A stretch of 18,345 nt of DNA, taken from positions 1 to 18,345 of the forward strand of contig CALJXB010000463.1 in the NCBI GenBank assembly GCA_937974415.1, written 5' to 3'. The position numbers were made by a program, and so were the translations under genes. Positions 1 through 16,636 of this stretch are shown in pieces (positions within the stretch are counted from its first letter, which is position 1; each line of letters starts with the position of its first letter). The notes under the pieces were generated by a model, which was not told the DNA's origin, did no database searches, and saw only the letters and a list, made by a program, of their open reading frames with translations. This stretch comes from an uncultured Kiloniellales bacterium (GTDB taxonomy: Bacteria > Pseudomonadota > Alphaproteobacteria > Kiloniellales > JAKSDN01).

Positions 1-21
1 CTTGAGATCGCCCTTCGCCAT
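1..21 (-). CDS. 5' end of a minus-strand gene, cut by the window edge
   Basis: Reading the minus strand, an ATG at 21 opens a frame that runs off the window and gives only MAKGDLK. A purine-rich GGGAGG lies about five bases upstream, a good ribosome binding site. The fragment resembles the start of a family of very short basic alphaproteobacterial proteins of unknown role, but seven residues cannot establish that. The gene would be divergent from the septation-protein gene that follows. Confidence 0.4.
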
Positions 22-163
22 GACCGCCTCCCGGCACCCGCAGCTCCGCCGTCCCTCTGATAACCCTGGCGCGCGCGCCTGTCACGGGATCACGTGTCAC
101 CGCCCCAAGTCTTACGGCCCTCGCGTTGCCTCGCCGCGGCACGCGGGTTAGGGTCGAGGCGCC

Positions 164-769
164 ATGAGCGACGGAGCCAAAGAGACCAGGACCGAAGCCG
201 CCCGGGCCGAGCCGCCTTGGCTGCGGCCGCTCAGCGACTACGGGCCCATCGCGGTCTTCTTCATCGCCTATGTGCTATCCGACCTGCTGTGGGCGACCGG
301 GGCCTTGATGGCGGCCACGGCGGTGGCGCTGGGCCTCAGCCTGGCGATCGCCCGACGGGTGCCGCTGATGCCGCTGATCACCGCCGGGGTGGTCGCCGTC
401 TTCGGCGGGCTCACCCTGGCCCTCCAGGACGAGACTTTCATCAAGATGAAGCCGACCATCGTGCAGGTGCTGTTCGCGGCCATCCTGCTCGGCGGCCTGG
501 CCTTCGGGCGGCCGCTCCTGAAGCCGCTGATGGGGACGGCCTGGGCCATGGACGACCGAGGCTGGCACAAGCTCACGTTCCGCTTCGGCCTGTTCTTCCT
601 GGCCATGGCCGGCCTCAACGAGGCCGTCTGGCGGACCCAGAGCACCGACGTCTGGGTGAGCTTCAAAGTCTTCGGCATCCTCGGCCTGACCCTCGTCTTC
701 GCGCTTGCCCAGACGCCGCTCATGCGCCGCCATCACCTGGCCTCCGAGGAGACCGCGGGCGAAGATTGA
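164..769 (+). CDS. yciB: Inner membrane septation protein A family (YciB/IspZ)
   Basis: This 201-residue protein is a polytopic inner-membrane protein of the YciB/IspZ (septation protein A) family. After a charged N-terminus of about 20 residues, it shows about five hydrophobic segments, including one near residues 28-45 and further ones near 50-65, 70-86, 103-118 and 168-183. The family hallmark FIKMKPTI lies near residues 91-98, and LNEAVWR with the W(V)SFKVFG stretch follows later, as in known YciB proteins. Length is normal. YciB proteins interact with cell-elongation and division proteins and affect envelope integrity; the exact activity is not settled. The ATG at 164 has only a weak GGTCGAGG upstream. 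It stands just before an ftsZ-type gene on the same strand, but 259 bases separate the two and the second has its own apparent control region, so co-transcription is doubtful. Confidence 0.9.
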   Translation: MSDGAKETRTEAARAEPPWLRPLSDYGPIAVFFIAYVLSDLLWATGALMAATAVALGLSLAIARRVPLMPLITAGVVAVFGGLTLALQDETFIKMKPTIVQVLFAAILLGGLAFGRPLLKPLMGTAWAMDDRGWHKLTFRFGLFFLAMAGLNEAVWRTQSTDVWVSFKVFGILGLTLVFALAQTPLMRRHHLASEETAGED

Positions 770-781
770 GCCGCCCGGCTC
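768..781 (+). terminator. Short hairpin at the yciB stop codon
   Basis: GAGCC, a GCCC loop and GGCTC form a 5-bp stem starting inside the yciB stop codon. No T-run follows, so this is a weak terminator candidate only. Confidence 0.25.
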
Positions 782-879
782 GAATATCGCGACAGCTAAA
801 AAGCCCGAGCGCCTCTAGGCCCGAACAAGACCCGGCCCGCGATTTGATCTGCCCTGCAAAGTGCTGACAAGGCCTCGTC

Positions 880-894
880 TTAACCAATTCTTAA
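880..894 (+). promoter_or_regulatory. CtrA-type box TTAA-N7-TTAA upstream of the ftsZ-Sel1 gene
   Basis: The sequence TTAACCAATTCTTAA matches exactly the full CtrA recognition pattern TTAA-N7-TTAA, and its left half also resembles the TTAACCAT half-site. TTAA is rare in this GC-rich window. The box lies 134 bases before the GTG start at 1029, in an AT-rich patch (880-900) that also contains TAATAT, a possible -10 element. CtrA is the alphaproteobacterial cell-cycle response regulator and controls ftsZ in Caulobacter. Control of this gene by CtrA is an inference from the site alone. Two GANTC sites (945-949 and 978-982), the target of the CcrM methylase, also fall between box and start. Confidence 0.6.
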
Positions 895-982
895 TATAGG
901 TAAATGACGGGCAAAATCGTCTTGTCCGCATCTTTGTTGCGGGCGATTCCCATCCCCACTATGGTTTCGTGTTGTTCGAGTC

Positions 983-1001
983 GCGCCGGCCGTGCCGGCG
1001 C
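983..1001 (+). promoter_or_regulatory. Leader hairpin before the ftsZ-Sel1 start
   Basis: GCGCCGGC, a CGT loop and GCCGGCGC form a perfect 8-bp stem ending 27 bases before the GTG at 1029 and about 15 bases before its ribosome binding site. It could act on mRNA stability or translation. No T-run follows, so simple termination is unlikely. Confidence 0.4.
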
Positions 1002-1028
1002 CGGTTCGATACCGCAGGGAAGACAATC

Positions 1029-2936
1029 GTGGTCCTCAATCTCAAGGCGAGCGAGTCGACGGACGGCTACCTGCCGCGGATCGCCGTGCTGGGCATCGGC
1101 GGGGCCGGCGGCAACGCGGTCAGCAACATGATCGAGGCCGGCCTCGAAGGCGTCACCTTCATCGTCGCCAACACCGACGCCCAGGCGCTCGAGGCCTCGC
1201 CCTGCGAGAACCGCATCCAGCTCGGGCGCAACACCACCGGCGGCCTCGGCGCCGGCTCCCAGCCCGATGTCGGCCGCGAATCGGCGGAGGAAATACTCGA
1301 GGAGGTGCTCGACGCCCTGGAAGACTTCCACCTGGTCTTCATCGCCGCCGGCATGGGCGGGGGCACCGGCACCGGCGGCGCCCCGGTGATCGCCCGCGCC
1401 GCCCGCGAAGCGGGGCTGCTGACCGTCGGCGTTATGACCAAGCCCTTCGATTTCGAGGGCCCGCGGCGCATGCGGGTGGCGGAAGCGGGTCTGCAGGAGC
1501 TGCAGCGCCATCTGGATACCCTTTTGGTGATCCCCAACCAGAACCTGTTCCAGGTGGTCGACCGCAAGACCACCATTGGCGAGGCCTTCACACTGGCCGA
1601 CGGGGTCTTGCGCGACGGCGTGCGGGCGGTGACCGACCTCATCGTGCGCCCCGGACTGATCAATCTCGATTTTGCCGACGTGCGCATCGTGATCGAGGAC
1701 ATGGGCCGGGCGCTGATGGGCGTCGGCGAGGCCGAGGGCGAGCTCAGGGCCGTCGAGGCGGCCGGCGCCGCCATGGGCAATCCCTTGCTGGAGGGCGTGA
1801 CCCTCGATCAGGTCCGCGCCCTGCTCATCAACATCACCGGTGGCGACGACCTGACCCTGCACGAGGTCGAACAGGTGATCGGGCATATCGGCGAGCAGAT
1901 CGATCCCGCGGCCCAGCTGATCTTCGGCTCGACCCTGGACCCGGCCCTGGCCGGGCGCATCCGGGTCGCGGTGGTGGCGACCGCGGCCCACGCGAGCGCC
2001 TTGGAGTCGAGCCATTCGGCCCCCAAGGGGCCCAACCTCAGCCTGGTGTCCATTCGCGAGCAGACCGAACGGGCGCTCGCCGAACTTGCGCGCGACGCCG
2101 AGGAATCGGACCGCGAGGCGGAAGCCCCGTCCGGCGAGGCGGAGCAAGCGGCACCCGAAGCCGCCGGGACCGCCGGGGCGGCCGAGGCCGAGGATCGGGC
2201 GCCGGAGCTTCAACCGGAGCCCCAAAAGGAGGCACCGGCAGAGACGCTGGCGGAGCTGCCGCTGGCACCGCCCTCTGAAGACCTCGAGCCCGCGCAACCG
2301 GAGCCCCAAGCTGCGGGGGAGCCCCGCGGCGAGATGCCGGCCGAAGCCGGTGCCCCCGCGGCGACTCAAGACGATGCGGCGGCCGCCGACGCGGAAGCCG
2401 ATGCGGCCGAGGCGGACTCGGGCTTCATCGAGCGCCTGGTGACCAGCCTGACCACCCCCGTGGAGGACCAGTTCCAGAAGGCCGAGACCCTCTATCACAA
2501 GCCGCCGGCGGAGCGCGACCTGGAGGCCGCCTTCCGCGCCTACCTCAAGGCTGCCAAGCGCGGCCATCCGGGGGCCCAGAACCGCCTGGGCTGGATGTAC
2601 GAGCGCGGCGAGGGCGTCGAGCTCGATTACGGCCAGGCCGCGGAATGGCACCGCCGCGCCGCCGAGCAAGGCCACCTCAACGGCATGAACGACCTGGGCT
2701 ACCTCTATCGCCAGGGCCGCGGAGTGGAGCGGGACTTCGAGCAGGCGCTCTACTGGTTCCACCAGGCCGCCAAGCGCAACTACAGCTACGCCGAGTTCAA
2801 CATCGGACAGATGTACGAGAAGGGCCTCGGCGTCCAGCGGGATCTGGGCGAGGCCGTGAATTGGTACCGCAAAGCCGCGGCGCGCCACCACGAATGGGCG
2901 GAAAAACGCCTGGCCGACCTCGGCATCTCGCCGTAA
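1029..2936 (+). CDS. FtsZ-type tubulin-like GTPase with acidic linker and C-terminal Sel1 repeats
   Basis: The product (635 residues from this start) begins with a complete FtsZ GTPase core at about 14-320: GIGGAGGNAV (22-31), ANTDAQAL (67-74), GLGAGS (72 onward of the T3 region, near 92 in the longer frame), GMGGGTGTG (108-116), TKPFDFEG, PNQNLF, and the T7 loop NLDFAD (212-217) that completes the GTPase site. The tail differs from normal FtsZ. Residues about 321-465 are an acidic Ala/Pro/Glu-rich, probably disordered linker, and about 480-623 hold roughly four 36-residue Sel1/TPR-like repeats. I see no C-terminal FtsA/ZipA-binding peptide. GTG at 1029 is preferred because AGGGAAG lies upstream and MVLNL suits FtsZ; the frame stays open up to a GTG at 969. 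It is not beside ftsQ/ftsA, so it is probably a second FtsZ. Polymerisation is inferred from the intact core; the repeats suggest a protein-binding tail. Confidence 0.9.
   Translation: MVLNLKASESTDGYLPRIAVLGIGGAGGNAVSNMIEAGLEGVTFIVANTDAQALEASPCENRIQLGRNTTGGLGAGSQPDVGRESAEEILEEVLDALEDFHLVFIAAGMGGGTGTGGAPVIARAAREAGLLTVGVMTKPFDFEGPRRMRVAEAGLQELQRHLDTLLVIPNQNLFQVVDRKTTIGEAFTLADGVLRDGVRAVTDLIVRPGLINLDFADVRIVIEDMGRALMGVGEAEGELRAVEAAGAAMGNPLLEGVTLDQVRALLINITGGDDLTLHEVEQVIGHIGEQIDPAAQLIFGSTLDPALAGRIRVAVVATAAHASALESSHSAPKGPNLSLVSIREQTERALAELARDAEESDREAEAPSGEAEQAAPEAAGTAGAAEAEDRAPELQPEPQKEAPAETLAELPLAPPSEDLEPAQPEPQAAGEPRGEMPAEAGAPAATQDDAAAADAEADAAEADSGFIERLVTSLTTPVEDQFQKAETLYHKPPAERDLEAAFRAYLKAAKRGHPGAQNRLGWMYERGEGVELDYGQAAEWHRRAAEQGHLNGMNDLGYLYRQGRGVERDFEQALYWFHQAAKRNYSYAEFNIGQMYEKGLGVQRDLGEAVNWYRKAAARHHEWAEKRLADLGISP
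2466..2897 (+). repeat. Four Sel1-like protein repeats in the ftsZ-type gene
   Basis: Four consecutive 36-residue units start at 2466, 2574, 2682 and 2790. The last three are clear Sel1 units with the pattern LG-x-(M/L)Y-x-x-G-x-GV-x-x-D near the start and W(H/F/Y)-x-x-AA-x-x in the second helix. The first is degenerate. A short capping helix (AEKRLADLG) follows. Sel1 repeats form alpha-solenoids used in protein-protein contacts. Confidence 0.85.
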
Positions 2937-2955
2937 GGGCGCGGCGCGCCCTTAC
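2933..2955. terminator. Perfect hairpin between convergent genes
   Basis: GTAAGGGCGC, a GGC loop and GCGCCCTTAC form a perfect 10-bp stem that includes the stop codon of the ftsZ-type gene. It lies nine bases from the stop of the convergent CinA-like gene. It probably serves both strands, although neither side has a clear T-run. Confidence 0.6.
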
Positions 2956-2963
2956 CCTGAAGG

Positions 2964-3701
2964 TCAACTGCCCGCGCTAAGCTCCTCGACTAGGGCGGCC
3001 ACCGCGTCGCTGACCAGGGCGAGGCGCTCCGGTTCGGTCGCGCGCAGCACCAGGCGGGCGCCGTAGCGGCCCTCCTTGTGGAACGGATAGCTGCCGATCT
3101 CGACGTCCGGATTGGCCGCCTGGATCGCGCCCAAGCCGGCCGCCATGTGACCCTCGGCCAGGTAAGCCACGATGGTCTCGGACAAGACCCGCTGGCCGCC
3201 CGTGAGGCGGTGGCGCAGGCTCCCGAACATGGCCTGCATGACCGACGGGATGCCGGCCAGGACGAAGACGTTCTCCACCTGGAAGCCGGGCGCGCCGCTG
3301 ATCGGGTTCTCGACCAGCTGTGCGCCCTCCGGCGTGTGCGCCATGCGCAGGCGCGCCTGGTTCAGCTCGCCGGGCTCGTAGTAGCCGAGCAGGATCTCAT
3401 GGGCCTCCGGGTGAAGGGTCAGCGGCCGGCCGAAGGCCTTGGCGACCGATGCCGCGGTGATGTCGTCGTGGGTCGGCCCGATCCCGCCGGTGGTGAAGAC
3501 ATAGTCGAAGCGCCGGCGCAGCTCGTTCAGCGCTGCCACGATGGCGCCCTCGTCGTCGGCCACCACCCGGGCCTCGGCGAGCCGGATGCCGAGGCCCGTA
3601 AGCTCGGTGCCGAGAAAGGCCAGATTGGCGTCGCGGGTCTCGCCGGTCAGGATCTCGTTGCCGATGACCAGGAGTGCGGCGGTGACGCTGGATTGGCTCA
3701 A
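2964..3701 (-). CDS. CinA N-terminal / MoaB-like (molybdopterin-binding fold) protein
   Basis: This 245-residue protein belongs to the competence/damage-inducible protein A (CinA N-terminal, COG1058) family with the MoaB/Mog fold. Visible motifs are LLVIGNEILTG near residues 10-20, TTGGIGPTHDD near 70-80, and LAGIPSVM in the second half. The C-terminal nicotinamide-nucleotide amidase domain of full-length CinA is absent, as is common for stand-alone copies. The substrate cannot be told from sequence; family members handle nucleotides or pterins. A TTG at 3701 is preferred because a GGGGGG run lies eight bases upstream and gives MSQSSVTAALL, the usual family start; a GTG at 3740 would add 13 unconserved residues. 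It is 63 bases downstream of the lipoprotein gene on the same strand and may be co-transcribed with it. A TATAAT overlaps the start region. Confidence 0.85.
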   Translation of the reverse strand: MSQSSVTAALLVIGNEILTGETRDANLAFLGTELTGLGIRLAEARVVADDEGAIVAALNELRRRFDYVFTTGGIGPTHDDITAASVAKAFGRPLTLHPEAHEILLGYYEPGELNQARLRMAHTPEGAQLVENPISGAPGFQVENVFVLAGIPSVMQAMFGSLRHRLTGGQRVLSETIVAYLAEGHMAAGLGAIQAANPDVEIGSYPFHKEGRYGARLVLRATEPERLALVSDAVAALVEELSAGS

Positions 3702-3764
3702 ATTATACACCCCCCGAGGCCGAGTCCCGGCAATCCGCACCCGCCGGGCCCGGTCGATTCCCGG

Positions 3765-4283
3765 TCAATTCTTGATGTAGCCCTTCGACTGCATGCAGCT
3801 ATCGAAGAGGGCGCCGCGCCGTCGCCGCTCGCTGTAGTAGTCCACCCGCTGGGTCAGGGTAGGCTCGCCCCAGAGATTGTAGACGTCGCGGTCGGCGCTG
3901 CTGTCGTAGCGGTCCTCGTCGATCAGCGACTCGCGGGCCACCTGGGCCGAGGCGAAGCGGAAGCAGGCCTCGATATCCTCCTGCTGCGTGGTCAGAGGGA
4001 CTTCCGGGTGGGTCCAGCCGGAACCCTCAGGTATGGTGATGGCAGTGGGCTCCGCGGCCACCGAGGGATCGGGCTCGATCGTTTCGATGACGACTCCGCT
4101 GCTGCCGGCGGGGGCGCTTTCGGCGGCGGCCGTGCCGGCGGACTCCGGCACCGGCGCCGCGGCGCCTTCCGGCGGCGGCAGGGCTCCGGAGCTGGGCGCC
4201 GTGGGGCGGGTCGGCTCGGGAAAGCTGCACGCGGGTGCCGCCAGGAGAGCCAATGCCACAACCACCGTGATGAGGGCCTTCAT
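3765..4283 (-). CDS. Small hypothetical lipoprotein
   Basis: I do not recognise the family of this 172-residue protein. It starts with a basic residue and a hydrophobic stretch (ALITVVVALALLAAPAC), which looks like a lipoprotein signal with the acylated Cys near residue 19, although Pro at -2 is atypical. A low-complexity Ser/Pro/Ala/Glu-rich region of about 70 residues follows, a probable envelope spacer. The C-terminal part is charged and aromatic (RVDYYSERRRR) and ends DSCMQSKGYIKN; a C-M-x-x-KGY ending recurs in small proteobacterial lipoproteins. The ATG at 4283 is chosen over a GTG six bases earlier because AGAGG is better spaced to it. The gene is divergent from sfsA and precedes the CinA-like gene. 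The predicted location is membrane-anchored in the periplasm or outer membrane. Confidence 0.75.
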   Translation of the reverse strand: MKALITVVVALALLAAPACSFPEPTRPTAPSSGALPPPEGAAAPVPESAGTAAAESAPAGSSGVVIETIEPDPSVAAEPTAITIPEGSGWTHPEVPLTTQQEDIEACFRFASAQVARESLIDEDRYDSSADRDVYNLWGEPTLTQRVDYYSERRRRGALFDSCMQSKGYIKN

Positions 4284-4400
4284 CCGCACTGTCCTCTCGA
4301 TCCGGTCGCTCTACTCGACCGACGCGCCCCACCCCATAAATGGATCGCCGCGGGCCCGGCCACGGTTGAATCCAGTCTAGCCACAGGGTACCAAGATGTC

Positions 4401-5117
4401 ATGAAATTCGCGGACCCTCTTTTATCTGGTCGGCTGCTGCGCCGCTACAAGCGATTCCTCTCGGATATCGAGTTGCAGGACGGCGCAGAGGTGACGGCCC
4501 ACTGCCCCAATCCCGGCTCCATGATGGGGCTGGCCGAACCGGGCATGGCGGTGTGGCTGTCACCGAGCCGCAATCCGGCGCGCAAGCTGGCCTTCACCTG
4601 GGAGCTGGTCGACGCCGGCCCGTCGCTGGTCGGCATCAACACCGGCTGGGCCAACGCGGTGGTCGCCGAGGCCTGGCAGGACGGGCGCATTGCCGAGCTC
4701 GCCGGCTACCGGGATCTGCGGCGCGAGGTGCGCTACGGTAAGAACAGTCGCGTCGATCTGCTGCTCGAGGGGCCCGGCCGCGAGGCCTGCTACGTGGAGA
4801 TCAAGAGCGTGACGTTGCGGCGCGACGGCGAAGAGGCCGCCTCGCCAAGGGCCGAGTTCCCCGACGCCGTGACGGCGCGCGGCGCCAAGCACCTGGGCGA
4901 GCTCGCCCAGGTGGTGGAAGACGGCGGACGCGCGGTGATGTTCTACCTGGTGCAGCGGGGCGACTGCGGCCGCGTGGCTATTGCCTCGGATATCGATCCG
5001 GTCTATGCCCGCGCCTTCGCGGAGGCCAGGCAGCGCGGCGTGGAGGTTTTCTGCTATGATTGCAGCGTCGGCCCAGAGGCCATCGAACTGCGCCAGCCCC
5101 TGCCGCTCGATGACTGA
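4401..5117 (+). CDS. sfsA: SfsA family protein (sugar fermentation stimulation protein; probable DNA-binding/nuclease fold)
   Basis: This is a full-length 238-residue SfsA protein. Diagnostic motifs are HCPNPGSM (34-41), a TWELVDAGPSLVGINT-like stretch (66-81), RVDLLL (117-122), VEIKSVTL (132-139), FPDAVTARGAKHL (153-165) and VMFYLVQRGD (about 179-188). The D...ExK arrangement of the middle motifs resembles PD-(D/E)xK nucleases, and SfsA proteins carry an N-terminal OB-like domain. In E. coli SfsA was named for an effect on maltose metabolism and binds DNA; its true role is still unclear. The ATG at 4401 is used: upstream codons in this frame are antisense to the lipoprotein and CinA-like genes. 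The ribosome binding site is weak (AGGG at 4385). The map gene follows after 68 bases on the same strand, so the two may form an operon. Confidence 0.93.
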   Translation: MKFADPLLSGRLLRRYKRFLSDIELQDGAEVTAHCPNPGSMMGLAEPGMAVWLSPSRNPARKLAFTWELVDAGPSLVGINTGWANAVVAEAWQDGRIAELAGYRDLRREVRYGKNSRVDLLLEGPGREACYVEIKSVTLRRDGEEAASPRAEFPDAVTARGAKHLGELAQVVEDGGRAVMFYLVQRGDCGRVAIASDIDPVYARAFAEARQRGVEVFCYDCSVGPEAIELRQPLPLDD

Positions 5118-5185
5118 CGGCGGCCAGCGGCGACAGACGGCACGAAAGGACGGCTGACGGTGACTGAAGACGGCGGGATCAGAGG

Positions 5186-6028
5186 ATGACCACGGCGGGT
5201 ACGGGCTCAGGCGAAGCCGCGCGGCGCATGAACCACGAGGAGCGCCGGATCACCATCCATACGGAGGCCGATTTCGAAGCCATGCGCCGGGCCGGCCGCC
5301 TGGCCGCCGAAACCCTCGACTTTATCACCCCCTCGGTGACCCCGGGCGCCACGACGGAACACCTCGACCGCCTGTGCCACGACTACATCATCGGCCACGG
5401 TGCCATTCCCGCGCCGCTCAACTACCGCGGTTTCCCCAAGTCGATCTGCACCTCGGTCAACCACGTGGTCTGCCACGGCATCCCGAACGAGAAGAAGCGC
5501 CTGCAGGACGGCGACATCGTCAACATCGACGTCACCGTGATCCTCGACGGATGGCACGGCGATACCAGCCGCATGTTCTACCTCGGCGCGCCCAAGCTCA
5601 GGGCGAGACGGCTAATAGAGATCACCTTCGAGGCCATGTGGCGCGGCATCGAGGCGGTCCGCCCGGGCGCGACCCTGGGCGACGTAGGCCACGCCATCCA
5701 GTGCCACGCCGAGGCGCAGGGCTTCTCCGTGGTGCGCGATTTCTGCGGCCACGGGCTCGGCCGGGTGTTCCACGAGGCCCCCAGCGTGCTGCACTTCGGC
5801 GACCCGGGCGAGGGCGTGGTCCTGCGCGAGGGCATGTTCTTCACCGTCGAGCCGATGATCAACGCCGGGCGCTATCAGGTGAAGATCCTGGAGGACGGCT
5901 GGACCGCGGTGACCCGCGACCGCTCCCTGTCGGCCCAGTTCGAACACTCGATCGGCGTCACGGCCGACGGCTACGAGGTTTTCACTCTATCGCCCAAGGG
6001 CTGGCACAGCCCGCCCTACGAGGCCTGA
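5186..6028 (+). CDS. map: Type I methionine aminopeptidase
   Basis: The enzyme removes the initiator methionine from nascent proteins in the cytosol. All five metal ligands are present: D115, D126, H189, E222 and E253 (numbered from ATG 5186), along with the substrate-contact His in VVCHGIP (H97) and the FCGHGLG motif. The C-terminal end, with LSPKGWHSPPY, is typical of alphaproteobacterial copies. The start is uncertain. The ATG at 5186 has GAGG directly against it, too close for normal pairing, while an in-frame ATG at 5228 gives MNHEERRITIH, closer to the usual family N-terminus. The catalytic domain is unaffected. The 68-base spacer from sfsA suggests shared transcription. The gene converges on the dodecin-like gene with a hairpin between them. 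Confidence 0.95.
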   Translation: MTTAGTGSGEAARRMNHEERRITIHTEADFEAMRRAGRLAAETLDFITPSVTPGATTEHLDRLCHDYIIGHGAIPAPLNYRGFPKSICTSVNHVVCHGIPNEKKRLQDGDIVNIDVTVILDGWHGDTSRMFYLGAPKLRARRLIEITFEAMWRGIEAVRPGATLGDVGHAIQCHAEAQGFSVVRDFCGHGLGRVFHEAPSVLHFGDPGEGVVLREGMFFTVEPMINAGRYQVKILEDGWTAVTRDRSLSAQFEHSIGVTADGYEVFTLSPKGWHSPPYEA

Positions 6029-6051
6029 AACGCACTATTTTCCGCCCCACG

Positions 6052-6081
6052 CCTGTCCTCCGCCCAGCCGGCGGATACAGG
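6052..6081. terminator. Hairpin between convergent map and dodecin-like genes
   Basis: TCCGCC and GGCGGA form a 6-bp stem with a 5-base loop, extended by an outer CCTGT/ACAGG stem across a small internal loop. It lies 23 bases after the map stop and about 20 bases from the opposite stop, a fitting position for a bidirectional terminator. Neither side has a marked T-run. Confidence 0.5.
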
Positions 6082-6101
6082 AGCGACGGACGTCGGGCCC
6101 A

Positions 6102-6308
6102 CTACTCGAACTTGAACGACACCTTCACCTTGGCCCGGTAGGTGTCGACCTTTCCGTCCTTGATCTGCATGTCGAGCTCGGAGACTTCGGCGATGCGCAG
6201 ATCCCGTAAACTTGCGCCCGCCCGCTCGACCGCGGCTTTTGCGGCCTTCTCCCAAGACTCCTCGCTGGTGCCGACCAGTTCGATGACCTTGTAGACGCTT
6301 TCCGCCAT
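6102..6308 (-). CDS. Dodecin-like small protein without the usual flavin-stacking tryptophan
   Basis: This 68-residue protein matches the dodecin family in length and pattern: VYKVIELVGTSEESWE at the N-terminus, one amphipathic helix (about 17-33), then beta strands ending YRAKVKVSFKFE. Dodecins assemble into hollow dodecamers; classic ones store riboflavin or FMN between stacked tryptophans of paired subunits. That Trp, found in the family's (L)(D/V)W-x-EV motif, aligns by eye with Ile39 (LRIAEV) here, and the halophilic flavin-contacting Gln aligns with Leu45. Flavin binding is therefore doubtful; some dodecins are thought to bind other ligands such as calcium. The only Trp is W19 in the helix. 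A strong GAGGAGAAAGAGG precedes the ATG at 6308. The open frame continues further upstream, but those residues are not dodecin-like. Confidence 0.85.
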   Translation of the reverse strand: MAESVYKVIELVGTSEESWEKAAKAAVERAGASLRDLRIAEVSELDMQIKDGKVDTYRAKVKVSFKFE

Positions 6309-6590
6309 GTCCTCTTTCTCCTCTCCCCCGGCACCCGCAAAAGCACGGACGCGCGCTCGCACCATAGCACGATCCCGAGCCATGCCAGCGCCCTTCCCTG
6401 AGGCCGGCCGAAACCAGCCGAGAGGGCGCGCCAAGGGAATTTGCGGCAAGGGATTTTGCGATCACCCCCCGACGGGGTATTTTGCAAGGGACCGGCGGCG
6501 GTGGCCCGTCCGGACCTCCGCAGGGCGGCCGCGCCGGGGTCGAGTGTCGACCCGACAGGGCGACATCGGGAGGGGGAAGGACCGACCGCG

Positions 6591-7289
6591 ATGAGCGAGT
6601 CGAAACAGCAACAGGATAAGCCGCACTACCACGGCCATCGCGACCGCTTGCGCCAGCGCTTGCTGGGCAAGGGCGGCGAGGCGCTGGCCGATTACGAGAT
6701 CCTGGAGTTCCTGCTGTTCGGCGCCAAGCCCCGGACCGACACCAAGCCGCTCGCCAAGGCACTGATGAAGCGCTTCGGCAGCCTGTCGGCAGTGCTGGCG
6801 GCCGAGCCCTCGGAACTCGCCGAAGTGCCGGATCTGGGCGACGCCTCGATCGCGGCGCTTAAGATCGTGCCCGAGGCGGCGCGGCGCCTCGCCCGGGAGC
6901 AGATCCTGGGTCAGCCGGTGCTGTCGTCCTGGGGCAAGCTGCTCGACTACTGCCGCATCTCGCTTGCCCACGAAAAGGTCGAACGCTTCCACCTGCTGTT
7001 CCTCGACCGGCAGAACCGCCTGATCGCCGACGAGACCCAGCAGCGCGGCACGGTCGACCACACGCCGGTCTATCCCCGCGAGGTGGTGCGCCGCGCCTTG
7101 GAGCTCGGCGCCACAGCCCTCATCCTGGTGCACAACCACCCCTCGGGCGACCCGACGCCGTCGAAGGCCGACATCGAGATGACCCGGGAAATCGTCGCCG
7201 CCGGCGAGAAGCTCGGCATCGCGGTGCACGACCACGTGGTGATCGCCAAGTCCGGCGAGACCAGCTTCAAGAGCGCCGGGCTGCTGTAG
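6591..7289 (+). CDS. radC: RadC family JAMM/MPN+ domain protein
   Basis: This 232-residue protein has the two-part RadC layout. An N-terminal helix-hairpin-helix-like region (about 15-100, with EVPDLGDASIAAL near 78-90) is followed by the JAMM metalloprotease-like domain with H181-N-H183-PSGDPTPSKAD194, the zinc-binding signature. RadC was named for a supposed DNA repair role in E. coli that was later retracted; its biochemical function remains unsettled. The ATG at 6591 lies about ten bases after a strong GGAGGGGGAAGG. The upstream 280 bases to the dodecin start hold the divergent promoters of both genes and no further gene that I can support. Confidence 0.93.
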   Translation: MSESKQQQDKPHYHGHRDRLRQRLLGKGGEALADYEILEFLLFGAKPRTDTKPLAKALMKRFGSLSAVLAAEPSELAEVPDLGDASIAALKIVPEAARRLAREQILGQPVLSSWGKLLDYCRISLAHEKVERFHLLFLDRQNRLIADETQQRGTVDHTPVYPREVVRRALELGATALILVHNHPSGDPTPSKADIEMTREIVAAGEKLGIAVHDHVVIAKSGETSFKSAGLL

Positions 7290-7348
7290 CGGCCGCCCTT
7301 GCCCCGCCGAGGTGTCGGCACAAGGATATAGGGTTGCGGCCGGGCGTC

Positions 7349-7365
7349 TTAACCATAAGTGTTAA
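7349..7365 (+). promoter_or_regulatory. CtrA-like half-site pair (TTAACCAT plus TTAAC, spacing 9)
   Basis: TTAACCAT at 7349-7356 equals the known CtrA half-site motif. A second TTAA follows at 7362-7365, but the gap is nine bases rather than seven, so this is not a canonical full site. It lies 148 bases upstream of the small gene at 7497. A consensus -35 TTGACA sits at 7448-7453, without a convincing -10. Confidence 0.35.
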
Positions 7366-7496
7366 CCCAAAAGGGCTGGCGTTCTCGAAACCGTCGCCGC
7401 ATAATTGTTGCTCGCGAGGCCGTTGAGGCCCTCCGTGGTTCGCGGATTTGACAAGGCATTTATTTCGAACGTGACTTTGAATCGGGCCGGTGTTTC

Positions 7497-7742
7497 ATGC
7501 AGATCGACGACAAAATTACCGAAGGCTACGTAATACTCTGCCACAACAAGACCGAAGAGCACGTCTTCATCGTACGGACGCTGGGGCCTGCCGTGGAATG
7601 TCCGAAATGCGGCAGCACGGCCCTGTCGGGGGACCTGGCGACGGATTTCGTGCGCCGCAAACGCAACGGGCGCAACGGGGCGAACGGGGCGAACGGGGCG
7701 AACGGGGCGAACGGCCAGGATCGCACGGCCGCATCGTCCTAA
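7497..7742 (+). CDS. Small Cys-containing protein with a Gly-X-X repeat tail, function unknown
   Basis: I do not recognise the function of this 81-residue protein. The N-terminal half (about 1-48) looks folded and holds a CPKCG knuckle at about 35-39 with an upstream Cys15/His16 and His22, which could form a treble-clef or ribbon zinc site; only three cysteines are present, so metal binding is uncertain. After VRRKRNGRN, the tail is a run of Asn-Gly-Ala triplets, encoded by 9-bp DNA repeats, giving Gly at every third position as in collagen but only about six triplets long. The ATG at 7497 has no strong ribosome binding site. Non-repetitive codon choice is less GC-biased than in radC upstream. 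A TTGACA (-35-like) and a CtrA-like half-site precede the gene. Confidence 0.65.
   Translation: MQIDDKITEGYVILCHNKTEEHVFIVRTLGPAVECPKCGSTALSGDLATDFVRRKRNGRNGANGANGANGANGQDRTAASS
7665..7715 (+). repeat. 9-bp tandem repeat AACGGGGCG inside the small gene
   Basis: Four exact copies occupy 7674-7709, flanked by degenerate copies on each side (7665-7673 and 7710-7715). The unit length keeps the frame, so copy-number change by slippage would lengthen or shorten the Asn-Gly-Ala tail without a frameshift. Confidence 0.9.
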
Positions 7743-7856
7743 GGCAAGCCGACTCTTCGACCACACGTCCATGGCGGCCCGCCGTGGCGCCGGATGGCGT
7801 TCATTTGGGACTGCGCAAGAGGGGGCAGGCGGGACGACGTCCTGCTCCCGTCGCCG

Positions 7857-8027
7857 TCAAAAGATCCACGAGATCACCAGGAAAATCCCAGACCACAGAA
7901 TCAGGTTGCTGAGCACCACGGCGAGCAGCGTGAGGCGCGGCGACCACTTGTCGTCGCTCAGCGGCGCGCGCCGCGTTTCGCGACCACCCTCGTCTTCGCT
8001 CGGAATCTGAAATTCCGACGCGCTCAT
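7857..8027 (-). CDS. 56-residue single-pass membrane protein
   Basis: A short minus-strand frame encodes a hydrophilic, acidic-then-basic N-terminus (MSASEFQIPSEDEGG, then RETRR) and one long hydrophobic helix (about 32-55, LTLLAVVLSNLILWSGIFLV), ending two residues after a Trp. GGGGGA lies six bases before the ATG at 8027, a good ribosome binding site. Start, composition and the helix at the extreme C-terminus suggest a tail-anchored or N-in membrane miniprotein. I do not know its function. It is convergent with the small Gly-repeat gene and reads toward it across a 114-base gap. Confidence 0.7.
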   Translation of the reverse strand: MSASEFQIPSEDEGGRETRRAPLSDDKWSPRLTLLAVVLSNLILWSGIFLVISWIF

Positions 8028-8040
8028 GGTTTTCCCCCAA

Positions 8041-8056
8041 GACCGGACCCCCGGTC
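8041..8056. repeat. GACCGG/CCGGTC inverted repeat
   Basis: A 6-bp perfect stem with an ACCC loop lies 13 bases upstream of the start of the 56-residue membrane protein gene, next to its ribosome binding site. It could be an operator or a leader hairpin. Confidence 0.4.
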
Positions 8057-8096
8057 GTCAGTTCTTCAGGGGCGCGATGGGAATTCCCCGGACGTG

Positions 8097-8115
8097 ATGA
8101 TCACCGGACGATCAT
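8097..8115. promoter_or_regulatory. ATGATC-N7-GATCAT inverted repeat, possible operator
   Basis: Two perfect 6-bp half-sites separated by seven bases, a geometry typical of dimeric regulators. It lies 70 bases upstream of the minus-strand membrane-protein start. No regulator can be named. Confidence 0.35.
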
Positions 8116-8153
8116 TCATGGGCAGAAACTCCCTGCAGCCGTCTGCCGAGACA

Positions 8154-8198
8154 CAAAAAACAACTCACCGCCTTTTGGTTATCATAAGGCTAGGCGGT
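8154..8198 (-). terminator. Minus-strand hairpin followed by a T-run
   Basis: On the minus strand ACCGCCT pairs with AGGCGGT around an 18-base loop (8167-8198); an alternative GCCTT/AAGGC pairing exists inside. Three bases later comes TTGTTTTTTG. This is the best rho-independent terminator shape in the window. It lies about 210 bases downstream of the flavoprotein stop, or could be an attenuator in the leader of the 56-residue gene. Confidence 0.5.
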
Positions 8199-8409
8199 TG
8201 AATTGCGCTATTTCGATAATCTTGTGCAACTTTACGTCTATTTGCAACAAATAATGTCAAGTGTGTTGACTTACACATCCGCTTAGATACGCGATCCCAC
8301 ACCTACTGGATGGCAGTCATCGGCGATCCAAAGCTGTGGGAGACTTTGGACTCTTGGTGAAGAAACGACGCGGCCGAGGGTGATTTACGGTTCTCGGGCG
8401 CGGGGCGGC

Positions 8410-10467
8410 TCACCCGAGGCAGGGTTGCTCGCGCGGCAGTTCAGCCGCCTCGTCCCGCGGGTCGCCAAGCCGGCGGGCCGCCCGGTGGCCGGCGTAGACC
8501 GCCGCCGCGAGGGTTCCGGGCGCCGCGCAATCGCCGATGCGGCTGAGCGACAGGATGCCGTACTCCGTCAGCCGCTTCGGATCGCCCGCCAGTTCGAGAT
8601 AGAGGCTGTCCGAAGGTGCCCGGGAGGTGATCGTAAGGAGCGAGCCCGCCGGCCGCGCTGTAATGCGCCTGGAAAACACGCAGGCGAGCCGCACCTCGCT
8701 GCCATCGAAGCTGTCCAGCCCATGGTTGGTGACGATCTCCACCCCGGCCTCGATGAGGGCTGCCATGGTGAATTCCTGCTCGCCGGTGTGCCGGCTCCAG
8801 TGCCCGGCCCGCCCCTCGTTGGTCGCCAGGACCACCTCGAGGCCCTCGGCCCGGAGCTTGAGCGCCAAGACGGCGCCCATGTAGTAGTTGTCGTCGTCGT
8901 AAACGAGGACCGGGCCCTCGGGCCGATGCCCGTCCATGATGTCGTCCGGGGTGAGGACATTCGCGAGCTCGGAGCCTGGAAACGCCGTGGTGCGCTGACG
9001 GCCGAGGCCGTCGCGCCGCCAGCGTGCGCCGGTCGCCACGAAGACGTGCTGAAAGCCGAAATCGAGCACCTGGGCCGCGCTCAACTCGCTCTCCAGATAG
9101 ATCTCCACGTTGGCCAGCTTGGTCAACTGGCCGAGGCGCCAGTCGCGCACTCGCGCCCATTCGGCCAGGCCAGGCAGGCGGCTTTCGCGGCTCACCCGGC
9201 CGCCCAGTTCCGCGCCCGCCTCGGCCAGAGTCACCGCGTAGCCGCGCTGGCCGAGGGCGCGCGCCGCCTCCAGCCCGGCCGGCCCGCCGCCCGCCACCAG
9301 CACCGTCTCCTCGGCGTGGCGCCGGGCAATCCGCTCCGGGTGCCAGCCCCTGCGCCACTCCTCGCCCATGGTCGGGTTCTGGGTGCAGCGGATCGGCACG
9401 GCGCGGTTGTCGTGGGCGTAGCAGATGTTGCAGCCGATGCACTCGCGGATGTCCTCGAGACGCCCCGCCTTGATTTTTCTTGGCAGGAAGGGATCGGCGA
9501 TCGACGGCCGGGCAGCGCCGATGAAGTCGAGGATGCCCTTCTTGATCTGGCGCACCATGGTGTCCGGCGAGGTGAAACGGCCGACCCCCACCACCGGCTT
9601 GGCGCTCATCGTCTTGACGAAGGCCACGGCCTCTTCCTGGGCCGCCTCCTTGACGAAGCGCGAGCTGCCCATCTCGCGCCAGTAGTCGGGGACGGTCACG
9701 TCCCAAAGGTCCGGCAGGTCCGCCAGCAGGGCGATCGCCTCGCGCGACTCCGCCACCGTCAGGCCTTCGACACAGCCCTCGTCGGAGACGTTGAAGCGCA
9801 CCGCCACGGCGGCACGGTCGCCCACTGCGTCGCGGGTCTCGGCGATCAACTCACGCACGATGCGCACCCGGTTCTCCAGCGATCCGCCGTACTCGTCGGA
9901 GCGCCGGTTGAGCTCCGGGGAGAGAAACTCCGACAGCAGATAGCCGTGGGCGGCGTAGACATAGACGATGTCGAAGCCGGCCTCGAGCGCACGTCCCGCC
10001 GCCGCCTTTTGCCAGCCCCTGAGATCGCGGATGTCCTGCTTGTCCATCGGTCGCGAGGCCACCGGATCGCCGGAGGAATGGGCCAGCGGCCAGCTACCGG
10101 CGCCGAGGGTCGGCAGCCGGCTCCACAGGTTGGCGGTGGAACTGCCGCCGTGCCACAGCTCGACGCCGGCGAGCGCCCCCTGGTCATGCACTGCCTCGGT
10201 CATCAGCGCGTGGGCGCACACGTCCTCCGCGTCCCATAGGGCCGCGTAATTCGAAGGCTGATTGTCGGAGCTGGGATGCATCGAGCAATACTCGGTGCAG
10301 ACGACGCCCCAGCCACCCTCCGCCTTGACGCCCCGGAGCGCCGCCAGGCTGCGCGGATAGCGCCAGCCCAAGCCGGTGCAATGGGGCACCTGGTAGAAGC
10401 GGTTGGACGCCGTCACCGGCCCGATCTTCACCGGCTCGAACAGCACGTCGTAGCGCGGATCACGCAT
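8410..10467 (-). CDS. Trimethylamine dehydrogenase-family iron-sulfur flavoprotein
   Basis: This 685-residue protein closely follows trimethylamine dehydrogenase (TMADH), dimethylamine dehydrogenase and histamine dehydrogenase throughout. Residues 1-330 form the Old-Yellow-type TIM barrel, with C30 in QVPHC for the 6-S-cysteinyl FMN and the Y171/H174 pair. C343, C346, C349 and C361 bind a 4Fe-4S cluster. From about 387 (VLVAGGGPAGLEAARAL) there is a nucleotide-binding domain, which binds ADP structurally in TMADH. Such enzymes oxidatively cleave amines and pass electrons to an ETF. The TMADH aromatic bowl Y60/W264/W355 appears here as Y60, W263 and D353; Asp at the last position is what histamine dehydrogenase has, so the substrate is an amine of unknown identity. 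AGAGG precedes the ATG at 10467. The gene stands alone between unrelated neighbours; no ETF genes are visible. Confidence 0.88.
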   Translation of the reverse strand: MRDPRYDVLFEPVKIGPVTASNRFYQVPHCTGLGWRYPRSLAALRGVKAEGGWGVVCTEYCSMHPSSDNQPSNYAALWDAEDVCAHALMTEAVHDQGALAGVELWHGGSSTANLWSRLPTLGAGSWPLAHSSGDPVASRPMDKQDIRDLRGWQKAAAGRALEAGFDIVYVYAAHGYLLSEFLSPELNRRSDEYGGSLENRVRIVRELIAETRDAVGDRAAVAVRFNVSDEGCVEGLTVAESREAIALLADLPDLWDVTVPDYWREMGSSRFVKEAAQEEAVAFVKTMSAKPVVGVGRFTSPDTMVRQIKKGILDFIGAARPSIADPFLPRKIKAGRLEDIRECIGCNICYAHDNRAVPIRCTQNPTMGEEWRRGWHPERIARRHAEETVLVAGGGPAGLEAARALGQRGYAVTLAEAGAELGGRVSRESRLPGLAEWARVRDWRLGQLTKLANVEIYLESELSAAQVLDFGFQHVFVATGARWRRDGLGRQRTTAFPGSELANVLTPDDIMDGHRPEGPVLVYDDDNYYMGAVLALKLRAEGLEVVLATNEGRAGHWSRHTGEQEFTMAALIEAGVEIVTNHGLDSFDGSEVRLACVFSRRITARPAGSLLTITSRAPSDSLYLELAGDPKRLTEYGILSLSRIGDCAAPGTLAAAVYAGHRAARRLGDPRDEAAELPREQPCLG

Positions 10468-10608
10468 AGTCGCCTCTCACTCTTGCCATTCGCCCTTGCT
10501 TGGACCGCTAGCCGAGCCCAGTCAAGCCCCGGCCCACCCTTGACAATCCCGCCTCCCGGGCGTTCGTTGGCGCCCTATTTCAATCCGAGAGTCGCCGCGA
10601 GCTGGCCC

Positions 10609-11925
10609 ATGATTCCGCGTTACAGCCGGCCCGAAATGACCAAGATCTGGGAGCCGGAGAACCGCTTCCGCATCTGGTTCGAGATCGAGGCCCATGCCTG
10701 CGACGCCCAGGCGGAACTCGGCGTGATCCCCAAGGCGGCCGCCGAGGCGGTCTGGCAGCGCGGCCGTTTCGAGGTCGCGCGCATCGACGAGATCGAGGCG
10801 ACCACCAAGCACGACGTCATCGCCTTCCTCACCAACTTGGCCGAGCACGTGGGCGAGGAGGCGCGCTTCGTGCACCAGGGCATGACCTCCTCGGACGTGC
10901 TGGATACCTGCCTGGCGGTGCAGCTGACCCAGGCGGCCGACCTGCTGCTGGCCGACCTTGACCGCCTGCTTGCGGCGCTCGAGGCCCGGGCACGGGAGCA
11001 CAAGGAGACCCTGTGCCTCGGCCGCAGCCACGGCATCCATGCCGAGCCGACCACCTTCGGCCTCAAGCTGGCCGGCCACTACGCCGCCTTCGCCCGCAAC
11101 CGCGAACGTCTGGAGGCGGCGCGGCGCGAAGTCGCGACCTGCGCCATCTCCGGCGCCGTGGGCACCTTCGCCACCATCGATCCGGCCGTGGAGGCCCACG
11201 TGGCGGAGAAGCTGGGCCTCGCCGTCGAGCCGGTCTCGACCCAGGTCATCCCGCGCGACCGGCACGCCGCCTACTTCGCCGCCCTCGGCATCGTCGCGTC
11301 TTCCGTCGAGGCGCTGGCCGTGGAGGTCCGCCATCTGCAGCGCAGCGAGGTCCGCGAGGCCGAGGAATACTTCGCGCCCGGCCAGAAGGGCTCCTCGGCC
11401 ATGCCCCACAAGCGCAACCCGATCCTCAGCGAGAACCTTACCGGCCTCGCCCGGGTGGTGCGGGCCGCGGTGGTGCCGGCGCTCGAGAATGTCGCCCTGT
11501 GGCACGAGCGCGATATCTCCCACTCCTCGGTCGAGCGGGTCTTCGCGCCGGACTCCACCATCGCCCTCGACTTCGCGCTTCACCGCCTCGCCGGGGTGGT
11601 CGAGAAGCTGCTGGTCTACCCGGAGGCCATGGCCCGCAATCTGGACCAATTGGGCGGCCTGATCCACTCCCAGCGGGTGCTGCTGGCGCTCACCCAGGCC
11701 GGGGTCAGCCGCGAGGCGGCCTATCGCATCGTGCAGGACAAGGCCATGGCCGTGTGGGCCGGCGAAGGCGACTTCCTGGCGCTCTTGAAGGACGACCCGG
11801 AGGTTGTGGCCAAGCTCTCGGGCGAGGCCCTGGAGGCCTGCTTCGACATGGCCGAACACCTGAGGCACGTCGATACCGTCTTCGCGCGGGTGTTCGCGAA
11901 GCCTGGCGCAGGCTCCGGCCGGTGA
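10609..11925 (+). CDS. purB: Adenylosuccinate lyase
   Basis: PurB catalyses two fumarate-releasing steps: SAICAR to AICAR and adenylosuccinate to AMP. The 438-residue protein has the superfamily signature GSSAMPHKRNP at 261-271, with the catalytic Ser262/Ser263 flexible loop, TSSDVLDT and GRSHGIHAEPT motifs carrying active-site residues, and the N-terminal MIPRYSRPEM typical of alphaproteobacterial PurB. The ATG at 10609 is taken because it gives exactly that N-terminus; the frame is open upstream but that sequence is antisense to the flavoprotein gene. The ribosome binding site is weak. It heads the purine block of this window; the sulfatase-like gene follows only 13 bases after its stop, so they may share a transcript. 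Confidence 0.96.
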   Translation: MIPRYSRPEMTKIWEPENRFRIWFEIEAHACDAQAELGVIPKAAAEAVWQRGRFEVARIDEIEATTKHDVIAFLTNLAEHVGEEARFVHQGMTSSDVLDTCLAVQLTQAADLLLADLDRLLAALEARAREHKETLCLGRSHGIHAEPTTFGLKLAGHYAAFARNRERLEAARREVATCAISGAVGTFATIDPAVEAHVAEKLGLAVEPVSTQVIPRDRHAAYFAALGIVASSVEALAVEVRHLQRSEVREAEEYFAPGQKGSSAMPHKRNPILSENLTGLARVVRAAVVPALENVALWHERDISHSSVERVFAPDSTIALDFALHRLAGVVEKLLVYPEAMARNLDQLGGLIHSQRVLLALTQAGVSREAAYRIVQDKAMAVWAGEGDFLALLKDDPEVVAKLSGEALEACFDMAEHLRHVDTVFARVFAKPGAGSGR

Positions 11926-11938
11926 TGGGACCCAGCCC

Positions 11939-13696
11939 TTGAGGTCACGGAACAAGGGAAGGGTTTTCGTCTTACTCCGGCATCTGGCAAACCTCTGTGC
12001 GCCTGGCTTGGTGGTTCTATTGCCGTTCTTCGGCTTCATTCGATTTCACGACTATCCCGTTTGGCGGCCGGAGGTGCTCTTGGTCGTTGGTGCCATCTTG
12101 GCCCTAGGCGCGCCGTTCGGGCTGTTGATCTCTATCCGCGCCAAGACCTTGGGCGCCGCAGCGATTACAGCCCTTCTTCTCGCTTGGCTTGGCGGAACGA
12201 TCCTCGCATCGAATCAAGATATGTTCTTCGTCGTAGAGTCGGCGAGGCATTGGCTCGTGAACATCGCGGGCAGCGCCGGCATGTACATCGTCTTTTTCGG
12301 CGGCTTCGCCTTGGTCGTTGGCACGATATTCTTTCTTGCCAGCCGACTGGGCCAGTATCTCGGGATCGTCGTCGCCACGGCCTTCGGCATGGCCTCCGTC
12401 AGCGTTCTCATAGCTCCCACTGGGAAGATCTTTCTCGGCGAATTCTACCGAAATCCCGCCATAGCACAGGCCGACCTGCCTCCCATCGTCCACTTCATTT
12501 TGGACGAGCATATCGGGCTGCAGGGCCTGCCGAGCGACATCGAGGGGGCGGACGAGCTTCGCAACGAGCTCATAGCTTTCTATGAAAGTTTCGGTTTCAG
12601 AGTGTTCGGGCGAGCCTATTCGCAATACGCCGACACCAAAGTTTCACTCGCCGCCATGCTGAGCGGGCAGCCGCACAACTACATAACAAGCGGGGAGGAT
12701 GCCGAAGCCTCGCGAACGCACCTCAGCCAAAATCCCTGGTTTGAACACTTGGCCGAGCAGGGCTATCGCGTTCGAGTCTACAGCAGTTACGACGTGAATT
12801 TCTGTGGCAAGGACGAAAGCCCAATTCACTCGTGCTTCGGCTATTCCGCGAATTCGATCAGTTCGCTGAAAGACTCGAACCTTCCTGCTGTCATATTGGC
12901 GAAGGCGATCAGCGCGAGTTTTCTTGATACCGTAATCCTTTACCGAATGTGGTTGGACACATCTCCCAACGTCGTGCGACAGGGGGCCGTTCTGCCAAAT
13001 TGGTTGCGTCAAGAGCACAAGTTCGCGGCTCCCGCTAGCCTCCCGGTCCTCCGGCAGGTTTTGCAGGATCTGCACAGAGAACCTCGCGGCAGCGCCTATT
13101 TCGTGCACCTCTTGATCCCACATCACACCTATCTCTACGACCAGGACTGCCGGATCAGGTCCGACATCGAGAGTTGGGCGAACCATGTCAGCCCGGACGC
13201 CGACTTCGCCTCCGGCCAGATCAACACGCCGGACTCGCGCAAGCGCTCGTATGCCACCTACTTGGAACAGCTGCGGTGCACCAAGAGCCAGCTTCGGGCT
13301 TTCTTCGAGGACCTTCGCGCAATTGGCACCTTCGAAGATGGAACGATCATCGTTCATGGCGATCATGGATCGCGAATCGCCAAGGTACCCGCCAATGGCA
13401 GGTTTGCCGATCGGCTCAGCAACAGCGACCTGGTCGACCTCTTCTCGGTCCTCTTTGCCGTGCACGGCCCAGGCATCGAGAGCGGATACGACAACCGCCT
13501 TCGCTCCCTTCAGTCTCTCTTCGCAGAAATCGCCTTGCAGCACGCTCAATCGCCGGAACCCGACGATATCGTCTTAAGCTTCATCAATGAGTTCGGGGAC
13601 CCCATACCGGGCAAGACTTGGCTTCGCATGCCCATGCCCAACTTCGGGGCGGCGCTATCAGCGGCGCCGGAGGACGGTGAGGCGCCGATAAATTGA
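11939..13696 (+). CDS. Membrane protein with sulfatase/alkaline-phosphatase-fold domain
   Basis: This 585-residue protein has about five transmembrane helices (about 20-36, 46-64, 71-90, 113-134, 140-160) and then a large domain with alkaline-phosphatase superfamily features: HFILDEH near 185-191 (first metal Asp), ADTKVSLAAMLSG near 231-243 (Thr233 as the candidate nucleophile), HLLIPHHTY near 390-398 and the HGDHG signature at 473-477. The layout resembles LtaS- and EptA-like phospho-group transferases acting outside the cytoplasmic membrane, but the substrate is unknown. The start appears to be TTG at 11939, 13 bases after purB, with GGGA about ten bases upstream; no ATG is available nearby. 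GC counted by hand is 33/60 at 11941-12000 and 34/60 at 12601-12660, against 43/60 at the purB end, and codon use looks different, suggesting recent acquisition. Confidence 0.75.
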   Translation: MRSRNKGRVFVLLRHLANLCAPGLVVLLPFFGFIRFHDYPVWRPEVLLVVGAILALGAPFGLLISIRAKTLGAAAITALLLAWLGGTILASNQDMFFVVESARHWLVNIAGSAGMYIVFFGGFALVVGTIFFLASRLGQYLGIVVATAFGMASVSVLIAPTGKIFLGEFYRNPAIAQADLPPIVHFILDEHIGLQGLPSDIEGADELRNELIAFYESFGFRVFGRAYSQYADTKVSLAAMLSGQPHNYITSGEDAEASRTHLSQNPWFEHLAEQGYRVRVYSSYDVNFCGKDESPIHSCFGYSANSISSLKDSNLPAVILAKAISASFLDTVILYRMWLDTSPNVVRQGAVLPNWLRQEHKFAAPASLPVLRQVLQDLHREPRGSAYFVHLLIPHHTYLYDQDCRIRSDIESWANHVSPDADFASGQINTPDSRKRSYATYLEQLRCTKSQLRAFFEDLRAIGTFEDGTIIVHGDHGSRIAKVPANGRFADRLSNSDLVDLFSVLFAVHGPGIESGYDNRLRSLQSLFAEIALQHAQSPEPDDIVLSFINEFGDPIPGKTWLRMPMPNFGAALSAAPEDGEAPIN

Positions 13697-13758
13697 GGCC
13701 GTTCGGAGCCTGACAGACGCGTTGCCGCTCGCGGCGCGAACTTCGGGTCACGTGAAGG

Positions 13759-13776
13759 CCCCGCCGTTGGGCGGGG
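13759..13776. terminator. GC-rich hairpin between convergent genes
   Basis: CCCCGCC, a GTTG loop and GGCGGGG form a perfect 7-bp stem between the stop of the sulfatase-like gene (13696) and the stop of the zeta-subunit gene (13810). There is no clear T-run on either side, but the position fits a bidirectional terminator. Confidence 0.55.
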
Positions 13777-16629: not shown

Positions 16630-16636
16630 GCGGGGT

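Follow-up and report, generated by a model that had tools for sequence, protein, structure and literature searches.

The C-terminal peptide of FtsZ is the hub at which the protein meets its membrane tethers and regulators, and second copies that lack it are known; FtsZm of Magnetospirillum is a second FtsZ with neither linker nor peptide. The protein described here adds a folded module. With the canonical alphaproteobacterial FtsZ (TIGR00065) it shares the core, the nucleotide motifs, a long linker and a short hydrophobic motif in that linker; it differs in that a Sel1 solenoid stands where the canonical protein has a DIPAFLRRQAN-type peptide, in that its gene lies outside the ftsA-ftsZ locus, and in that its core evolves faster (as measured in clade B, one of the two groups of fusions defined below). 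In Agrobacterium there are three FtsZ homologs, of which, according to the available part of the report, only one has the linker and peptide, is essential and localizes independently to midcell (PMC13170164). The likeness is a second FtsZ without the canonical tail beside a full-length one, but the Agrobacterium accessory copies, as that part describes them, have no linker and no peptide, whereas the fusion studied here has a linker and an added folded module (PMC13170164).

Two further systems resemble the fusion in part. In Prosthecobacter, as described in the accessible portion of the report, the solenoid (TPR) protein Bklc connects Btub filaments with lipid vesicles (PMC5372463). The BtubA/B system therefore shares with ours a tubulin-family filament with an alpha-solenoid adaptor, but Bklc is a separate TPR protein, whereas our adaptor is fused and of the Sel1 type (PMC5372463, same portion). 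FtsZl1 and FtsZl2 are also variant members of the FtsZ-tubulin superfamily, but they are distant families, and the words 'repeats' and 'TPR' are absent from the text of that paper (PMC2875224). Among Sel1 proteins, RgsF of Sinorhizobium is, in the part of the paper available to us, one of the Rgs proteins, which are linked with polar growth and division (PMC7327166). A Sel1 fusion was seen neither in the accessible parts of a survey of the FtsZ/tubulin family (PMC9871819) nor in those of a survey of FtsZ-like families (PMC2875224), and open-licence papers naming both FtsZ and Sel1, to which neither survey belongs, showed no such fusion in title or abstract start. The partly available open-licence literature on FtsZ with Sel1, on second copies and on domain fusions likewise held no account of an FtsZ-Sel1 fusion, in agreement with the initial annotation, which knew of no characterized example.

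Gene, domain layout and the missing peptide

The window (the whole stretch of DNA that we analyzed, 18,345 nucleotides from an uncultured Kiloniellales bacterium) carries on its + strand an open reading frame with a GTG start at 1029 and a stop codon ending at 2936, which encodes 635 amino acids. The frame is already open from an upstream GTG at 969; in the alignment, the start at 1029 matches the N-terminal end of the homologs P0003, P0004 and P0006-P0010, and three database records (P0002, P0005 and P0011) have longer N-ends. The features of the locus are as follows.

880..894, + strand: TTAA-N7-TTAA, a weak candidate site, 135 bp 5' of the start codon
1029..1982, + strand: FtsZ core, residues 1-318, a GTPase domain with GGGTGTG, T7 loop NLDFAD and FtsZ_C (Pfam and NCBIfam)
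1983..2459, + strand: acidic Ala/Pro/Glu linker, residues 319-477 (composition; pLDDT mostly <50)
2421..2450, + strand: short hydrophobic motif GFIERLVTSL, inside the linker and abutting the Sel1 block
2460..2933, + strand: Sel1 solenoid, residues 478-635 (PF08238; pLDDT mostly >90; tree; conserved residues)

The Pfam scan of the window protein placed PF00091 at residues 17-177 (159.8 bits) and PF12327 at residues 226-319 (99.6 bits), and found Sel1 (PF08238) in three stretches, at 106 bits against a gathering cut-off of 30.7; in NCBIfam the ftsZ equivalog TIGR00065 scored 375.9 bits (cut-off 295.2). The GGGTGTG loop and the N-L-D-F-A-D T7 loop are both present in the translation. Across a 35-row alignment the T7 residues N, L, D, F and the second D are invariant and the GGGTGTG loop is nearly so; in one fusion from the sister family f7 (L063/G037) one or both of these strings deviate from the exact form.

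The AlphaFold2 model was built on P0002, which differs from the window protein by two residues and by 19 extra N-terminal residues, with 34 homologs. Most of the GTPase subdomain is modeled at pLDDT >80 and about residues 190-340 (P0002 numbering) at 49-74, and the Sel1 part, mostly >90, folds into four helix pairs and a capping helix. Because the full-length model has a pTM of 0.46 and a linker mostly below pLDDT 50, its placement of the core relative to the Sel1 part is uninformative. Among the best 50 PDB matches listed by Foldseek for this model, all are FtsZ structures; in a sequence search, the solved Sel1 structures 4bwr, 6ok3, 8sxq and SEL1L match residues 497-631 or so of the window protein, a likeness in Sel1 repeats that is restricted to the Sel1 part.

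The linker contains 42 Ala, 27 Glu and 18 Pro among its 159 residues, with a net charge of -27. No C-terminal-peptide-like motif was found by one regular expression in any of 41 fusion sequences, linker included. We file the gene product as an FtsZ-family paralog rather than as canonical FtsZ, because it lacks the C-terminal peptide that is the mark of the canonical divisome protein. This layout bears out the initial annotation, which had described an FtsZ core with both nucleotide strings (now matched in Pfam and above the TIGR00065 cut-off), an Ala/Pro/Glu-rich linker of about 145 residues (159 by the present boundaries), about four Sel1 repeats (four helix pairs plus cap in the model) and the loss of the C-terminal peptide (0/41 by our pattern).

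All 41 fusions fit a loose pattern, counted with no shuffle control, for a hydrophobic motif just before the Sel1 block. It is of the GFIERLV type in the group that includes the window (clade A), and combines basic residues with an aromatic GGLFSWM type (KKRR-GGLFSWM) in most rows of the f7 group (clade B); the basic stretch was not seen before the Sel1 block in clade A. An S/G-L-F-x-R-V/M motif occurs in 35 of 52 linkers of canonical alphaproteobacterial FtsZ (shuffles predict 0.54); its median distance to the C-terminus is 100 residues. Since a comparable hydrophobic motif lies in canonical linkers and just before the Sel1 block, we infer that the Sel1 module probably took over everything after this motif, peptide included.

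Distribution of the fusion and its genomic setting

The protein search scored the 8000 candidates with the most shared words and listed the best 120. Tubulin, FtsZ_C and Sel1 domains occur together in 35 of these 120 (P0002 included), all within the first 38 listed rows; in the rest of the list Tubulin and FtsZ_C occur but Sel1 does not. A query with the Sel1 module found it in 10 of the 61 genomes of the order (271-293 bits), namely the window's genome and 9/9 genomes of f7. The remaining 51 genomes, six from f1 (the family of the window's genome) and 45 others, are without it (the best other Sel1 reached 150.6 bits), and five of these f1 genomes are each 91-99% complete. Absence of the architecture from relatives, which the initial annotation had named as a refuting result, thus occurred in part, since the nine f7 genomes have it and five nearly complete f1 genomes do not. 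Within f7 the core is in frame with the module in eight of nine genomes; in the ninth, G027, the contig starts inside the fusion gene and the core is cut off. A search of 385 genomes sampled from the class, which scored at most nine candidates per genome and used a sample evidently without an f7 carrier, gave a match passing E 1e-55 in the window's genome alone.

Of the 18 loci in the named collection, nine are of the fusion type; their sources are metagenome-assembled genomes throughout, six of them titled Kiloniellaceae, one Alphaproteobacteria and two Proteobacteria bacterium. Eight share their last 300 residues with eight f7 fusions, while L069 encodes a stub of 220 residues on a contig that, like G027:C217, has 15,598 bases; the nine named loci are therefore the f7 genomes again, and the two collections count as a single set. 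Since the same architecture recurs on other contigs, chance, a frameshift or an assembly join is excluded as the source of the fusion.

Wrong binning of the window contig is not supported, the evidence being mixed in detail. The product of a window gene that we take to be purB matches G005 and G006, both f1, at 88%, full-length f7 matches at 81-84%, and other f1 genomes at 81-84% or not at all; PurB is nearest to its own family, so the window contig fits its bin. For IspZ the bit scores are best in f1 (G002, G006 and G005) and the full-length identity is highest in f7 (70% in G037, against 61-67% in f1), and the molybdopterin-domain protein is best matched in f1 (G005, 337.7 bits, 65%). G001, of the same genus as the window's genome and 72% complete, had no match for any of these three control proteins, and therefore the absence of the fusion there says nothing.

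The fusion is an extra ftsZ copy wherever this could be checked. The window's genome (69% complete) has a further ftsZ on contig C151, adjoining ftsA and ending DLLDIPAFLRRQAN. Of the ten carriers, eight have ftsA above cut-off, all eight with a Sel1-free ftsZ beside it on the same contig, and in seven of the eight this copy ends in an ordinary peptide, the exception being G027. G034 and G040 showed neither ftsA above cut-off nor an ftsA-adjacent Sel1-free ftsZ, which fits an assembly gap. The fusion gene itself is not beside ftsA or a division cluster, the ftsA-adjacent copy being a different gene. The initial annotation had proposed a second, specialized FtsZ beside a canonical one, and the C151 gene is such a canonical copy; neither of the findings that it named as fatal to this proposal and that concern the gene itself, a frameshift or join between core and Sel1 region or its being the sole ftsZ, occurred.

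Other ftsZ genes of the order have unusual ends. The ftsA-adjacent ftsZ of G027 (L173, on G027:C106) encodes 369 residues with almost no linker and an odd end, IELPGFLQRFRKRRD, unlike its relatives. In family f3, L164 (G008:C7, 473-2491) and L166 (G015:C3) are second ftsZ genes whose products have a very long linker and lack the C-terminal peptide, and in L164, the one scanned, Pfam found the FtsZ core domains alone; in family f2, L160 (G007:C42) and L162 (G021:C303) are second, very divergent ftsZ genes of about 800 residues that end in NIPSFLRRTED, a changed C-terminal peptide. FtsZ duplicates with altered tails seem to be recurrent in this order.

The fusion gene in the window is flanked by ispZ/yciB upstream and by a molybdopterin-binding-domain gene downstream, outside any ftsQAZ context as had been proposed. 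The f7 loci have mazG on one side and MBL, tatD, metG and holB on the other (families were scanned in L063 only, the other loci being tied to it by blastp clusters). The window and the f7 loci have no neighbor gene in common, and no linked partner gene was found; since the locus context differs, relocation or transfer has happened. The neighborhoods examined gave no pointer to asymmetric division or to stalk or cyst formation, roles that the initial annotation had entertained. In L063, L065, L066 and L071, at about 2600-7400, mazG is followed by a YdbH-like, YnbE-like and DUF1318 set (by the L063-only scan), a cluster of the envelope phospholipid transport type. Just downstream of the putative purB, the window encodes at 11939-13696 a protein with a sulfatase-like domain and a weak match to lipoteichoic acid synthase.

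The TTAA-N7-TTAA at 880, a candidate CtrA-type site, has no second exact copy in the window and none turned up in 200 shuffles; there are 21 matches genome-wide against 15 for the reversed control. It occurs exactly in two of nine distinct fusion upstream regions and in 5/51 upstream regions of other ftsZ genes, and with at most one mismatch in 3/9 and 11/51, respectively. The site is not conserved across the fusions, and CtrA control of the fusion gene is a lead only. GANTC is found 39 times in the window (1-18345; 82.6 expected), a scarcity that we presume to be as for a CcrM-type methylated genome, with sites by the start of the fusion gene at 945, 978 and 1053.

Descent and constraint of the two parts

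Three core trees were computed, with 96, 93 and 61 rows, after near-copies and cut rows had been dropped; two of the three also omit three long rows. P0039 (whose C-terminal stretch departs from the shared frame), P0038 and P0022 (both missing the full Sel1 tail), P0037 and P0017 were left out, and P0017, which has a cut N-terminus, was included in the Sel1 tree. In the core trees the fusions fall into two clades with strong support, A (window type) and B (f7 type), with a long branch to clade A (0.56 and 0.33 changes per column in two core trees). Freely searched core trees keep A and B apart, and they are joined in 0/200 bootstrap trees; a core tree with the fusions together has a log-likelihood higher by 17.6 and 12.3 (p-AU 0.815 and 0.81) and is not rejected. 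In the Sel1 tree, a quick tree with no bootstrap, the two clades join at an SH-aLRT of 98 against 29 other Sel1 segments, many of them long-branched, and among the best 120 proteins listed in a search with the Sel1 part, none other than FtsZ fusions exceeds 51% identity. A single fusion event would be the simplest reading of these trees, although it is not proven.

The two clades differ in how much of the canonical core they retain. As a reference we used the 178 core columns with a conservation of at least 95% among 52 canonical sequences, themselves chosen by having the C-terminal peptide; clade A retains 122 of the 178 in at least 90% of its members, and clade B 157. Several of the clade A changes cluster at P0002 positions 297-316, around helix H10, the region where we understand MinC to act in E. 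coli. Given these residue losses and the rewritten H10, normal filament contacts in clade A are not assured.

Pairwise dN/dS values were obtained with a Nei-Gojobori type script for four genomes of g10 and one pair from g16, all clade B. They are 0.078-0.126 (g10) and 0.048 (g16) for the fused core, 0.071-0.173 and 0.051 for the Sel1 part, and 0.27-0.547 and 0.276 for the linker, the highest of the three parts; the canonical core of the same four g10 genomes gives 0.024-0.039. The values for core and Sel1 part lie well below 1, indicating that both are kept by selection in clade B, where the Sel1 part is about as constrained as the fused core and that core is held less tightly than the canonical one.

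Conservation of the Sel1 module was assessed on 43 fusion rows, which are related sequences and include P0002, a near-copy of the window row; 66 positions of the module reach at least 93%. Twenty of the 66 are kept in at least 41 of the 43 fusion modules and in <30% of other Sel1 segments, of which 13 to 29 of 29 have a letter at these positions (the 29 segments partly overlap one another and become fewer toward the module ends). Many of the 20 recur at a spacing of 36 residues (519/555, 522/558/594, 561/597, 553/589 and 587/623), as would be expected for one face of the solenoid, and the set may form a binding face. In the numbering of the window protein, R519, W522, D555, Y558, R561, Q594, E597 and W623 belong to the conserved set. 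In line with the initial annotation, the Sel1 part looks like a dedicated binding surface in view of these 20 near-invariant residues and the purifying selection in clade B.

A second FtsZ with a proposed docking module

The reading that we favor, with somewhat better than even confidence, is that the gene encodes a second FtsZ whose core probably polymerizes and whose Sel1 module replaces the C-terminal peptide and docks one conserved partner. An accessory ftsZ copy would have arisen, and a Sel1 solenoid would have displaced the last part of its linker together with the C-terminal peptide. The core of this copy has most likely retained GTP binding and the formation of protofilaments, alone or mixed with canonical FtsZ, and the long acidic linker would hold the solenoid away from the filament. 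There the solenoid may dock a single conserved partner, cytosolic or membrane-associated, a Sel1 docking in place of the peptide that docks FtsA, SepF and similar proteins. Polymerization and co-assembly with the Z ring are predicted here from sequence.

A less probable alternative, though still a serious one, is that the protein chiefly modulates the canonical Z ring, as a co-polymer present at low ratio that, having no tether peptide, loosens, times or marks the ring, with the Sel1 part as the input of a switch. The missing peptide in 41 fusions is what such a protein would show, the 157 of 178 canonical core columns kept by clade B are compatible with mixed filaments, and Agrobacterium, where only one of the three homologs localizes independently to midcell (PMC13170164), offers a precedent for accessory copies that depend on the main one; however, the strongly conserved set of Sel1 residues suggests more than a passive spoiler, and clade A has diverged in H10. 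We consider it more doubtful that the protein forms a separate filament with no part in division, the Sel1 module being an inbuilt adaptor that attaches it to a polar structure or a membrane, much as Bklc serves Btub. The long branch of clade A would fit a change of this kind, the KKRR-GGLFSWM stretch of clade B could touch a membrane, and the solenoid Bklc does tie Btub filaments to lipid vesicles, according to the part of that report available to us (PMC5372463), but the core scores above the FtsZ equivalog cut-off and the basic stretch was not seen in clade A. That the gene is a duplicate in decay, or an artifact of assembly or annotation, is very improbable: the nine named sources are all metagenome-assembled genomes, the clade B core evolves faster than the canonical one and the fusion is missing from five nearer relatives of the window, but the same layout recurs in 35 of the best 120 listed proteins, it is in frame in 8/9 f7 genomes with the ninth cut by a contig end, dN/dS is well below 1 for core and Sel1 part in clade B, and the window's PurB is 88% to its own family (G005/G006).

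The cells may possess two FtsZ filament systems side by side, an FtsA-linked Z ring and a second with its own solenoid receptor for a dedicated partner, a possibility that we hold only tentatively; were it true, a bacterial tubulin would carry an adaptor for cargo or scaffold within its own chain. The 158-residue Sel1 module is a defined bait and offers a route to an FtsZ partner by pull-down. Genomes that keep a normal FtsZ and, under selection, also a copy with an exchanged hub provide a natural experiment on the roles of peptide and linker, and the FtsZ-Sel1 lineage is a case for how a duplicated FtsZ gains a new job.
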